This document shows positions 1 through 43,856 of a stretch of DNA of 47,293 bases, in pieces; within the stretch, counting starts at the first letter, position 1; every line of letters starts with the position of its first letter. Position numbers and translations under genes: made by a program. The stretch is from Candidatus Faecicola pullistercoris (lineage in GTDB: Bacteria; Bacillota; Clostridia; Christensenellales; CAG-917). The notes beneath the pieces are model-generated. The model saw only the letters and a program-made list of their open reading frames with translations, was not told where the DNA came from and ran no database searches. Location: positions 1 to 47,293 of the forward strand of contig DVNW01000013.1 of assembly GCA_018714105.1 (NCBI GenBank). The letters are read 5' to 3'.

Positions 1-1622
1 TGGCGGGTTTGAGGGAACATATCGAAGGGCGTTACCCTGTCGATATTATAAACCTCGCAAAGCGTTTTCAGGTCCCTCGCCAGCGTGGCGGGATTGCAGG
101 ATATGTAAAACACCTTGTCGGCCCCTGACTGAACGACGGCCTGCAAAACGGAGTCGTCGCAGCCTTTTCTGGGCGGGTCCAGCACGACCGCTATGCCGCT
201 TTCCGAAGGCAAATCCGCCCGTTCGATTTCAATGGCAAGCGCGCGGTATTTCTCCTGCTTTTCGGGAGGATAATACAAATCGGTAATTTTAACGGCCATG
301 TCCGCCGAAATCTGCTCGCCCGTTGTTTTCTCCGTCCCGAGAGACTCAAACAGCTGTCTGAAACCTGCAAACTCGGTTTTACCTTTCACCCGTACGGTGA
401 GCGCATTGCCGTCGTCGTCCTCGAAAAGAATATAATCTCCCGATTTGACTTTTGCTCGTTTTTCGTCAGCTAAGCGCAATTCATATGTTTTAGCGCCGCT
501 TTTTATCTTATTAAACGGTGCTTTTTGTAAATTCATCTTATGAACCGCGGGTTTTTCGGAAATGAGACCGGCAACCAGACGAGGCAGGACTTCGGCGCAG
601 TCTCCGCACAGATTAGTTACGTTTTTCAGGCCCTTTTCCCTTATTGCGGCGTCGGCGGCGGCTACTGCTTCCGGCACTATTTCTATACCGTACGCTTTTC
701 CCGCTTTTTCAGCCAATTCGGCCGTTAAAACGCCCGTTCCCGAAAAAGCGTCTATCACCGTATCCTCTCCGTCGAACGCATCTGAAAGCGCCTTGTAAAT
801 CTTACCCGTGACGTTGTCGTTTACCTGCATGAAGGCCAGAGGCGAAATTCTGCTTTCCGTGCCTTTTACGAAGCGCACGTTATCCATAACGACGTTGGTG
901 TTTCGCGTGTTTGACGAAAAATAAACCCCCACTTTCCCGAACTTTTCCGAAAGGGCGTCGTAAAGTTCGTCCAGATGTCTTCCCTTTTTTGCGTTAGCCA
1001 CTATTACAACGGATATGCCGTCGGGCGTCTTTCTCGCGACCAGATGTCTGAGCTCGCCTGTTCGGTCTGTTTCGTCGTATGCGGTAAACGAAAACTTTCT
1101 CGCCCAGTTTTTAACCGTGCGTATAAGTTCCGCGGCCCATTCGCCATGAAGCGGACAGCCGTCGAGCGGCACCACGCTGTGGCTCTCCTTTTTGTAAAAG
1201 CCCAAAACCACCCCGTCCTTTCCCGTGCCGAAAGGCAGTTGCAGTTTATTGCGATATTCCAACCGTAAATCCGAAGGCACTACGGGCGAAACGCCGGCTT
1301 TTACTCCCGCTTTTTTCAGGCAGTTAACGACAATTTCCCGTTTAAGAGCCAGCTGACTGTCGTAACTCATGTGTTGCAGATCGCAACCGCCGCATTTTTT
1401 GAACAAAGGGCATACCGGCCGCACTCTGTCCTCGGACATACGGATAATCTTTTTCGCCTTTGCAAAGGCAAAGTTCTTTTTTACGTGAGTAATTTCCGCT
1501 TCCGCCCTTTCTCCCTTTAAAAGGTAATCGGCAAACAGGGTAAAGCCGTCGAGTTTTGCTATACCCTCGCCGTTCATGCCCTGGTCTACGATATCTAAGG
1601 TAACAACGTCGCCTTTTTTCAT
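1..1622 (-). CDS. rlmD: 23S rRNA (uracil-C5)-methyltransferase, RlmD/RumA family, with inserted ASCH domain (3' end cut by window edge)
   Basis: SAM-dependent methyltransferase that makes 5-methyluridine in 23S rRNA. I translated it by hand because it runs off the left edge: 540 residues are visible, ending in DMFPQT, so only about ten should be missing. It has an N-terminal TRAM domain (about 1-60), Fe-S cysteines C71, C77, C80 and a later one near 154, a SAM motif (DAFSGTGVLTAEL), then DPPRKGC and the catalytic ISCNPATL. Between the SAM domain and DPPRKG lies an insert of about 105 residues (about 361-465) with features of an ASCH domain: FNKIKSGAKTYELRL, GDYILF, and YYPPEKQEKY near its end. 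RlmD proteins are usually about 450 residues, so the insert explains the extra length. The reading frame is open throughout. ATG at 1622 has only a weak GGA upstream. Family is firm; substrate position (U1939 or U747) is not resolved. Confidence 0.9.
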   Translation of the reverse strand, partial: MKKGDVVTLDIVDQGMNGEGIAKLDGFTLFADYLLKGERAEAEITHVKKNFAFAKAKKIIRMSEDRVRPVCPLFKKCGGCDLQHMSYDSQLALKREIVVNCLKKAGVKAGVSPVVPSDLRLEYRNKLQLPFGTGKDGVVLGFYKKESHSVVPLDGCPLHGEWAAELIRTVKNWARKFSFTAYDETDRTGELRHLVARKTPDGISVVIVANAKKGRHLDELYDALSEKFGKVGVYFSSNTRNTNVVMDNVRFVKGTESRISPLAFMQVNDNVTGKIYKALSDAFDGEDTVIDAFSGTGVLTAELAEKAGKAYGIEIVPEAVAAADAAIREKGLKNVTNLCGDCAEVLPRLVAGLISEKPAVHKMNLQKAPFNKIKSGAKTYELRLADEKRAKVKSGDYILFEDDDGNALTVRVKGKTEFAGFRQLFESLGTEKTTGEQISADMAVKITDLYYPPEKQEKYRALAIEIERADLPSESGIAVVLDPPRKGCDDSVLQAVVQSGADKVFYISCNPATLARDLKTLCEVYNIDRVTPFDMFPQTR

Positions 1623-5153: not shown

Positions 5154-8100
5154 TTAATCGGTATAAACCACCTTTACGAAAGCCTCGCCGACAATATCCG
5201 CCAAATCCATCACGAGGTCGTCGCTGACGCTGACCTTCTCGGAAAATTCGAGCAGTTTGCCGCCCGTCTGAACGCGAACGGGCATCTGTCCCTTATGCAG
5301 TTTCAGCACGCTCTGAATAGCGGCAATATCGTTCTGTTTATCCGTTTTCAGATAAACCACGGCGGATTTTTCGGTTTTTACCCCGTCCTGTTTTTTTGTC
5401 TCGCACTTTTCGAGTTCCTGAACCGAACTGACCATAATGGTAGCTTCGTTGTCGCTGATTCTGAGTCTTCCCGAAACCGCCACGAAGGAATTTTCTTTAA
5501 GCAGGGACTTGTACTTTTCCAAAGCGTCCGCAAATACCAGAATGGATACCGACCCGTATAAATCCTCCAACACGCCGCTTCCCACGTACTTACCGTTTTT
5601 CTTTGAGAGTTTTTTCTCGAAAGAGCTCAGCACGCCTCCCATTACGACCCTGCTGTCATTCAGGCCGACGTCATAAATCGGCCTTTCCTCGTCTATATCG
5701 CTTTCTTCGGCATCTTCGCCCGAATACAGTTTTGAAGTGTTGAAACTGTACCTTTTAAGTGTTTCTTTGTAACTGTTAAGCGGATGGCCCGTAGCGTACA
5801 TACCCAGCACCTGCTTTTCGAAAATGAGCTTGTCAACATCGTCGTATTCGCGGTAATCGGGGTATTTGAACGACGACAGCGCGGCCGGCTCGCTTTCGGC
5901 AAAGTCGTCGAACAGCGAAATCTGGCCTGTAGCCGAGTTCTTTTTATCGTGGCTGACTATGTCCATAAGCTGTTCGTACGAAGCGATAAGGCTGCTCCTC
6001 GTACGGCCGAAACAGTCGAAAGCGCCGCCTTTAATCATGTTTTCCACCATGCGTTTGTTGAGGTTGATTTCGTCGTTGCGGCGCAGCAGATTTTCAAGGT
6101 CCGTATAAGGGCCGTTCTTCTCGCGCTCGGAGATAATGGCGTTAACTACCTGCTCGCCCACGTTTTTTATTGCCATAAGCCCGAACCTGACGCACTTGCC
6201 TTCCGTTTTGAATTTGAGGCTGCTTTTGTTGATATCGGGCGGCAGAACCTTAATGTTGACCGAGTTGAGATAATTTACGTATTTGCTTATTTCCTTCGCG
6301 TCCGTTATGCGGTTGTTAAGCACGGCCGTCATGAACTGCGCGGGATAATACCGTTTGAGATACGCGGTCTGATAGGTAACCACGCTGTACGCCGCGGCAT
6401 GCGACTTGTTAAAGGCATAGGACGCAAAATCCAGAATTTTGTCGAACAGTTTACTTGCGACGTCTTCGGGAATACCCCTTTTGACGGCGCCGTCCACGGG
6501 CTTGCCGTCCTTGTCCGCTGTCAGTTTTCCGTGGATAAAAATCTCCTTGTTTTTAACCATAACGTCATGCTTTTTCTTACCCATCGCGCGGCGCAGAAGG
6601 TCGGCTCCACCCAAGGAGTATCCGGCAAGTTCGCGCGCTATCTGCATGACCTGTTCCTGATAAACTATGCAGCCGTAGGTAACGCCCAGAATACTTTTGA
6701 GTTTGTCGTGGTCGTAAACTACTTTGTCAGGGTTGTTTTTGCCGCTTATGTATTTGTCGATAAACTGCATGGGGCCGGGCCTGTAAAGCGACACTCCCGC
6801 GATGACTTCTTCAAGTTTCGTAGGTTTCAGCCTTGACATAAAGCTGCACATGCCTCCGCTTTCAAGCTGGAATATGGCCACGGTATCTCCGCTGCTGATT
6901 TCCTTATATACCTCGGGGTCGTCCACGCCCAGCTTGTCGAAATCGATATCCTTGCCGTAATCCTCTTTAACGTATCTGAGGGCAAGGTCGATATCGGTAA
7001 GAGTCCTGAGTCCCAGAAAGTCCATTTTCACCAGGCCCATATGCTCGACCTGATCCTTATCGAACTGGGTGGTAACCGACTCGTCCTTTTTCTGCATAGG
7101 CAGATAGCTTACGACGGGTTTCGGGCAAATAAGAACGCCCGCGGCGTGCATCGAGGTCTGCCTGGGCAAACCTTCAAGTTTGATTGCCATGTCTATGACG
7201 CTTTTGGCCATGGCGTCCGTTTCGTAAAAGGATATGAAATCGGGCGAGGCTCCGACTGCTTTGCCGTCTTTTTCGGTAACTCTGCCCAGCGCCTTTTCGA
7301 TAGAACTTTTACCCTGCTCCACGGGTATGGCTTTCGCCCACTTGTCGGCCTCTGCGTAAGGGACGTCGTAAGCCCTGGCGACGTCCTTGACGGCCGCCCT
7401 TGCCGACAGCGTGCCGAAAGCTATAATCTGAGTTACGTTTTCGGGGTGGTATTTGCGGGTGACGTAATTTATTACGTCGCCCCTGCCCTCTATGCAGAAG
7501 TCTATATCGAAGTCGGGCATGGATATACGCTCCTCGTTGAGGAAGCGTTCGAAGAGCAGGTCGTATTTAAGCGGATCGACGTTGGTTATGCCTATTGCGT
7601 AAGCCACTATGCTTCCAACGCCGCTGCCTCTGCCCGGCCCTACGGGAATATTGTGCTTTTTCGCGTAGTTGATAAAATCCCACACTATGAGATAATAACC
7701 CGCAAAGCCCATTTTGGTAATAACCTGCAATTCCTTTTCGGCGCGCTCGCGGATACCGGGCGTAATCCGGCCGTACTTTTTCAGCAGGCCTTTATAAGTC
7801 ATATCTTTGAGGTATTCCTCGTTGGAAACGTTCAGAGGCTTACCCTGTTCGTCCTCGGGCACGTATGCCGGAATTTCGTAATGTCCTTCGGGCGCCTCGA
7901 TAAGAACTTCGACGTTGCACTTTCGGGCTATCTCCACGGTATTGTCCAAAGCGTCCTTATACGCTGGCAGCATTTTAAGCATCTCGTCGTAAGTTTTAAG
8001 GTAATACTCCTGCGGCTCCATTTTAAGACGCGTCGGATCGTTCACCTTTCTCTGCATATTGATGCACATCATGACGTCCTGGCAGTCGGCGTCCTCTTTG

Positions 8101-43680: not shown

Positions 43681-43717
43681 AGTATATACCTCCTTATAGA
43701 ATTATTCATAAATTAAA

Positions 43718-43822
43718 GCCCTTTCCAAAGAGGAAAGGGCAAAATAACCGTAAAGTCAGAGCCATTTCCTCGGTAAGCTGGAATATTATGTGCCGTGCAC
43801 GCTTACTGTCTTTGGATTAGCT
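43718..43822 (-). promoter_or_regulatory. L10 leader of the rplJL mRNA
   Basis: The transcript from the promoter at 43828-43856 contains CCAAAGACAGTAAGCGTG and later CTTACCGAGGAAATGG, the conserved core of the Firmicutes ribosomal protein L10 leader that binds L10-(L12)4. It ends in a strong hairpin GCCCTTTCC/GGAAAGGGC (43718-43726, 43732-43740) followed by a T-rich stretch, a probable attenuator before rplJ. Confidence 0.85.
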
Positions 43823-43827
43823 ATTAA

Positions 43828-43856
43828 AATATACCAGAAAAATCCGGTTTAGTCAA
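43828..43856 (-). promoter_or_regulatory. rplJL promoter
   Basis: Minus strand TTGACT (43851-43856), 17 bases, TATATT (43828-43833). It lies directly between the rplA stop and the L10 leader, so rplJL have their own promoter. Confidence 0.8.

Follow-up and report, generated by a model that had tools for sequence, protein, structure and literature searches.

An ASCH domain inserted into the catalytic domain of a predicted RlmD/RlmCD-type 23S rRNA (uracil-C5)-methyltransferase from a Christensenellales genome

Introduction

ASCH domains form a widespread superfamily of which few members have an assigned function. A conserved rRNA methyltransferase is less often interrupted in its core by another domain than fused to one end to end. 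The stretch of DNA analysed here (47,293 nucleotides, contig DVNW01000013.1 of Candidatus Faecicola pullistercoris; hereafter the window) begins with a methyltransferase gene of the RlmD type in which an ASCH (PUA-like) domain appears to interrupt the catalytic domain. Is this arrangement real, how did it come about, and what might an ASCH domain do in such a place? Both domains, and RNA-binding domains joined to rRNA methyltransferases, are already known. RlmI/RlmO-type rRNA m5C methyltransferases, for instance, carry a PUA domain. They resemble the window protein, by description and not by sequence, in combining an rRNA methyltransferase with a PUA-like domain; however, their PUA domain is N-terminal and their chemistry different, whereas the PUA-like domain of the window protein is internal (aa 360-467). 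In the open-access literature, to which our search was confined, we found no description of an RlmD interrupted by ASCH.

Results

The Methyltransferase and Its Active Site

Positions 3-1622 of the minus strand, the strand of all features of this gene, form an open reading frame of 540 aa that runs off the contig end; the frame is intact, as an earlier note made from the sequence alone had held. Its product is a predicted RlmD/RlmCD-type 23S rRNA (uracil-C5)-methyltransferase with an internal ASCH domain, an assignment that draws on sequence, profile and structure matches. In a profile search it matched TIGR00479 with an E-value of 1.2e-91 and 307.8 bits, the curated cut-off being 183.55. A TRAM (OB-fold RNA-binding) domain occupies aa 3-56 (1455-1616; PF01938, 2.1e-9), and the Pfam family tRNA_U5-meth_tr matches aa 477-539. 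Cysteines C71, C77 and C80 (1383-1412) and a fourth, C156 (1155-1157), are invariant in the fused RlmDs, and from what is known of the family we take them to be the Fe-S cluster cysteines. The SAM-binding motif I reads DAFSGTG (aa 291-297; 732-752), and the alignment places Cys509, presumably the nucleophile, in the sequence SCNPAT (84-101).

The active-site residues of Streptococcus pneumoniae RlmCD include F281, Q283, D381 and E443 (PMC6235398). In the alignment, F281, Q283, D381 and the cysteine nucleophile of the family fall on F264, Q266, D482 and C509 of the window protein, D482 being the first residue of motif IV, DPPRKG (aa 482-487; 162-179). The catalytic Glu (RlmCD E443) is part of the sequence HVETLV, which is encoded on contig C18 of the same genome, a single draft of 28 contigs. 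The 3' end of rlmD starts contig C18, which overlaps contig C9 by about 127-129 nt; the C18 part ends the protein with ...PQTRHVETLVCLGRHIVRREI* and thereby adds the general-base Glu and the stop. Counting contig C18, all RlmCD catalytic residues are thus present. No second full RlmD was found in the 28 contigs.

An AlphaFold2 model gave a pLDDT mostly above 90 for the methyltransferase on both sides of the insert, and its best solved match was S. pneumoniae RlmCD (5xj1; E 4.1e-39, TM 0.85 on the target). RlmCD (5xj1/5zq0) and Escherichia coli RumA/RlmD (1uwv/2bh2) have TRAM, central and catalytic domains as the window protein does, and share with it the active-site F, Q, D and Cys and, counting contig C18, the Glu. 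In contrast to the window protein, they have no ASCH domain and only a short loop between alpha-C and beta-4.

The Inserted ASCH Domain

The segment that interrupts the catalytic domain is preceded by the helix that follows motif III (aa 342-356); behind it come strand beta-4 (aa 477-481) and, immediately, DPPRKG. The earlier note had read this segment, located between the SAM motif and DPPRKG, as a genuine ASCH insertion and had placed it at 231-545; that reading stands, and the exact bounds are 222-545 (aa 360-467), as delimited by Pfam, a PDB match, the alignment and the model. On its N-side a linker ends the motif III helix (aa 350-359; 546-575), and on its C-side another leads to strand beta-4 (aa 468-476; 195-221), both delimited from alignment and model. 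A profile search, as the note had proposed, gave ASCH (PF04266) at aa 364-467 with an E-value of 9.7e-8 and 33.1 bits (curated cut-off 21.2), and a sequence search with the insert matched PDB entry 2z0t (E 2.2e-15). The insert carries the octapeptide GAKTYELR (aa 376-383; 474-497), a G-x-K-x-x-E-x-R sequence that conforms to the ASCH signature G-x-K-x-x-[ETS]-x-R (PMC9599836).

A model of the isolated insert, built with two relatives from viral contigs (pLDDT 71), superimposed on 2z0t with a Z of 13.2 and an rmsd of 2.0 over 99 residues. Further matches were the ASCH proteins 1xne and 1s04 (Z 9.5), E. coli YqfB (Z 9.1) and ZmASCH. With the stand-alone ASCH proteins PH0355 (2z0t) and PF0455 (1s04) the insert shares both fold and sequence (37-39% identity), but these are separate small proteins, whereas the ASCH domain of the window protein is internal to an enzyme. 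ZmASCH-type ribonucleases have the cleft residues Tyr47, Lys53 and Ser128. YqfB, an ac4C amidohydrolase, has the ASCH fold and the frame G-x-K-x-x-x-x-R in common with the insert; its catalytic residues are Lys21, Thr24 and Glu74 (PMC9599836). At the Thr24 position, however, the alignment shows Glu in all six inserts that we recovered (see below), and ac4C hydrolysis by the inserted domain is therefore unlikely. Five of the six inserts carry a net charge of -4 to -5, which speaks against unspecific RNA binding.

The Same Architecture in Other Genomes

A search for further RlmDs of this kind found ASCH at the identical site in five more genomes of the order (G057, G123, G180, G155 and G292), all belonging to genus g25 of family f16, which is not the family of the window genome; Pfam confirmed the ASCH domain in four of them. 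Four of these proteins are 43-47% identical to the window protein over the full length. The ASCH signature is kept in the inserts of five genomes, and its R is changed to K in G292. The G292 gene (L079, around 1108) is also split into two frames upstream of the insert, which reflects either a pseudogene or a sequencing error. An empty site with a short, normal loop is found in G140, which belongs to genus g25 and in which galE adjoins rlmD as in G057, and in a sister genome, G301. The RlmD of G301 (L114) has a mostly low-complexity insert at a later loop.

In a 45-row RlmD alignment none of the other 44 rows has residues at the position of the insert, which rules out that it is an ordinary RlmD loop. 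Among the other RlmDs read from the window genome's own family (f1), none contains ASCH. Two of them, from G009 (L006:916-2739) and G006 (L035:1110-2819), carry unrelated inserts in the same loop, about 140 and 95 residues long, respectively, and mostly of low complexity, so that this loop evidently tolerates additions; longer versions of it occur in some other RlmDs. A plasmid search returned ordinary RlmDs only. The genomes were sampled, and frequencies are accordingly rough.

These data also dispose of the suspicion that the fused gene is a chimeric contig or a misassembly. In its favor one could cite that the source is one fragmented draft and that the GC content of the insert (0.45) differs from that of its flanks (0.51 and 0.57); the same build in five independent genomes rules it out, and with the empty site in two close kin it bears out the view of the earlier note that no join error is involved.

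History of the Insertion

Among 53 ASCH domains placed in a tree, the window insert groups with those of G123, G057 and G180 (96/94). G155 and G292 have inserts that branch outside this group, with weak support; a single clade of all six inserts is not rejected (p-AU 0.30). In the methyltransferase tree a clade of the fused rows is rejected (p 6e-53), a grouping of the window row with f16 and f24 is weakly rejected (p 0.03), and the best tree places the window row nearest its own family f1 (76/92, not starred). Given this placement of the methyltransferase part, a transfer of the whole gene from genus g25 is not favored. Identity between the window protein and the other fused proteins is 42-49% for the insert and 42-47% for the methyltransferase; over a range of 42-61% methyltransferase identity the inserted ASCH has changed at most slightly faster than the catalytic parts. 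Inspection of the insertion edges by eye showed no direct-repeat scar. The simplest reading of the trees would be one old, maintained insertion of a stand-alone ASCH frame, followed by retention and several losses; alternatively, the ASCH segment may have moved between species.

ASCH Fusions Elsewhere and a Second Route to RlmD-ASCH

Searching with the window ASCH gave matches in 94 of 396 genomes of the order, many of them in longer frames. Partner domains assigned by Pfam include peptidase U32, an RluA-type pseudouridine synthase, thymidylate kinase, GtrA, GNAT, macro, MsrA, metallophosphoesterase, RNase T/DnaQ, Nudix, an EF-G-like protein with a YacP NYN domain and SDR; in other orders KptA and ArgJ were found. 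In the RluA, EF-G, ArgJ and some other fusions the ASCH domain itself was assigned by a purpose-built profile or a search hit and not by Pfam. Across Clostridia about fifteen unrelated enzyme families are fused to ASCH (L051, L054, L055, L069, L075, L082, L097, L100, L104, L227, L232, L253 and others), and as far as these sequences allow us to judge, ASCH is a remarkably promiscuous domain in this class. The fusions are mostly C-terminal; among those seen, RlmD alone is interrupted inside its catalytic fold.

RlmD also occurs with a C-terminal ASCH, namely in G698 and G780 (family f46 of another order). These proteins unite the same two domains as the window protein, but their ASCH follows the segment with the catalytic Glu, whereas that of the window protein interrupts the Rossmann fold; as it belongs to another order of bacteria, the C-terminal fusion is probably an independent event. 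An ASCH also follows rlmD at a distance of about 2 kb in G778 and of about 4 kb in G251, where it stands behind an RlmD-like end (HVEPVALLRR). The G251 ASCH (L060) and an ASCH from a viral contig (L201) form a branch apart from the inserted ASCHs; the f46 sequences, which were left out of the 53-domain tree, resemble these two. The C-terminal f46 fusions and the separate branch suggest that RlmD and ASCH were probably joined at least twice. The 3' end of rlmD has the look of a hotspot for integration, which may account in part for the C-terminal cases.

Taken across Clostridia, it is conceivable, if rather doubtful, that one ASCH branch serves as a portable plug-in for enzymes of rRNA and the ribosome (RlmD twice, U32, RluA-type, EF-G-like with NYN), tethering them to a modified-rRNA or nucleotide mark that they have in common; in RlmD it would have been placed inside the catalytic domain. 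The two routes to RlmD-ASCH and the many fusions in the order offer a handle on the ASCH superfamily.

What the Inserted Domain May Do

The inserted ASCH is whole, its signature is kept and it occupies the same site in six genomes, and the sequence motifs of the methyltransferase are kept as well. Its recurrence in six genomes shows that the architecture is real, and the domain is probably useful. In class I methyltransferases, the loops ahead of beta-strands are found at the sheet edge opposite SAM and substrate. A loop ahead of beta-4 is of this kind, and by this analogy the ASCH domain should sit on that edge and should not line the active site. RlmCD/RumA hold their substrate RNA in the TRAM cleft and in a groove flanked by the central and catalytic domains (PMC6235398). 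Neither its position nor the acidic charge of most inserts supports the idea that the insert changes target choice, and the proximity to the TRAM domain once claimed for it does not exist in the sequence. Likewise, an extra domain is not needed for a second modification site, as had been suggested, because the Gram-positive RlmCD modifies both U747 and U1939 without ASCH (PMC6235398).

We tentatively favor, at a probability of about 0.42, a working m5U methyltransferase of the RlmD/RlmCD type whose surface loop from alpha-C to beta-4 holds a complete ASCH domain, the product of an old insertion with an accessory reader role. The fused enzyme would still methylate its usual uracils using SAM; the ASCH domain at the sheet edge could read either RNA, in the form of an rRNA segment that is nearby or modified, or a nucleotide, and it might raise the affinity for, or time the action on, a ribosomal precursor, with no second catalytic site. 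In keeping with such a reader, several of the enzymes joined to ASCH have RNA or the ribosome as their target (U32, the RluA-type pseudouridine synthase, EF-G-like with NYN, KptA). Others have no link to RNA (thymidylate kinase, MsrA, GtrA, SDR), so that the partner list is no proof of an RNA role; the YqfB-type ASCH proteins that have been characterized did not bind nucleic acid (PMC9599836), the loop simply tolerates additions, and the patchy occurrence is what one expects of a dispensable trait.

These last points lead to the main rival, which we regard as possible: a stand-alone ASCH frame came to lie in a permissive surface loop, where it folds and adds nothing to RlmD. The unrelated inserts of G009 and G006 and the longer loops elsewhere fit this passenger, as do the broad range of enzyme types joined to ASCH and its clean absence in close kin. 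A useless domain of 108 aa, however, should decay or be deleted, and the inserted ASCH has kept its signature and has diverged at most slightly faster than the catalytic parts. An unlikely alternative would have the ASCH pocket bind a free (modified) nucleoside or nucleotide and tune the methyltransferase by moving the strand of beta-4 and motif IV. ASCH relatives do bind or hydrolyze nucleosides (YqfB with ac4C, PMC6972931; its structure is among the matches to the insert), the fusions to metabolic enzymes suggest a small ligand, and the insert is wired directly into the motif IV strand, which begins about 10 residues past the domain end; linkers of about nine residues could, however, uncouple the domains. 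A two-function protein, whose ASCH is an ac4C amidohydrolase or a single-stranded RNA ribonuclease, strikes us as very improbable: known ASCH proteins have these activities (PMC6972931, PMC5615036) and the Lys and Arg of the signature are kept, but the position of the YqfB nucleophile is occupied by Glu throughout. Close relatives with and without the insert, whose empty site is exactly defined, provide a natural before-and-after pair.

Further Observations

About 100 bp of the rlmD 3' end are doubled in L033 (contig C18 of the window genome, G000), at about 47-146 and 5575-5674; the downstream copy, some 5.4 kb away, reads into a longer tail in a 187-aa frame. This repeat suggests an element or a rearrangement at the hotspot by the rlmD 3' end, and it could be the reason for the contig break. 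On the IMG/VR contig L201 (1306-3378) a large serine recombinase whose C-terminus, VETVALLSRQ, is like the end of RlmD reads into ASCH, plausibly the junction left by an element that integrated into a C-terminal RlmD-ASCH gene. A 756-aa frame of G542 (L247:211-2478) combines an ASCH domain and a full ArgJ with an N-terminal domain for which Pfam gave no match. Elsewhere in the window, positions 43703-43833 of the minus strand hold an ordinary ribosomal protein L10 leader (Rfam RF00557, 69 bits).
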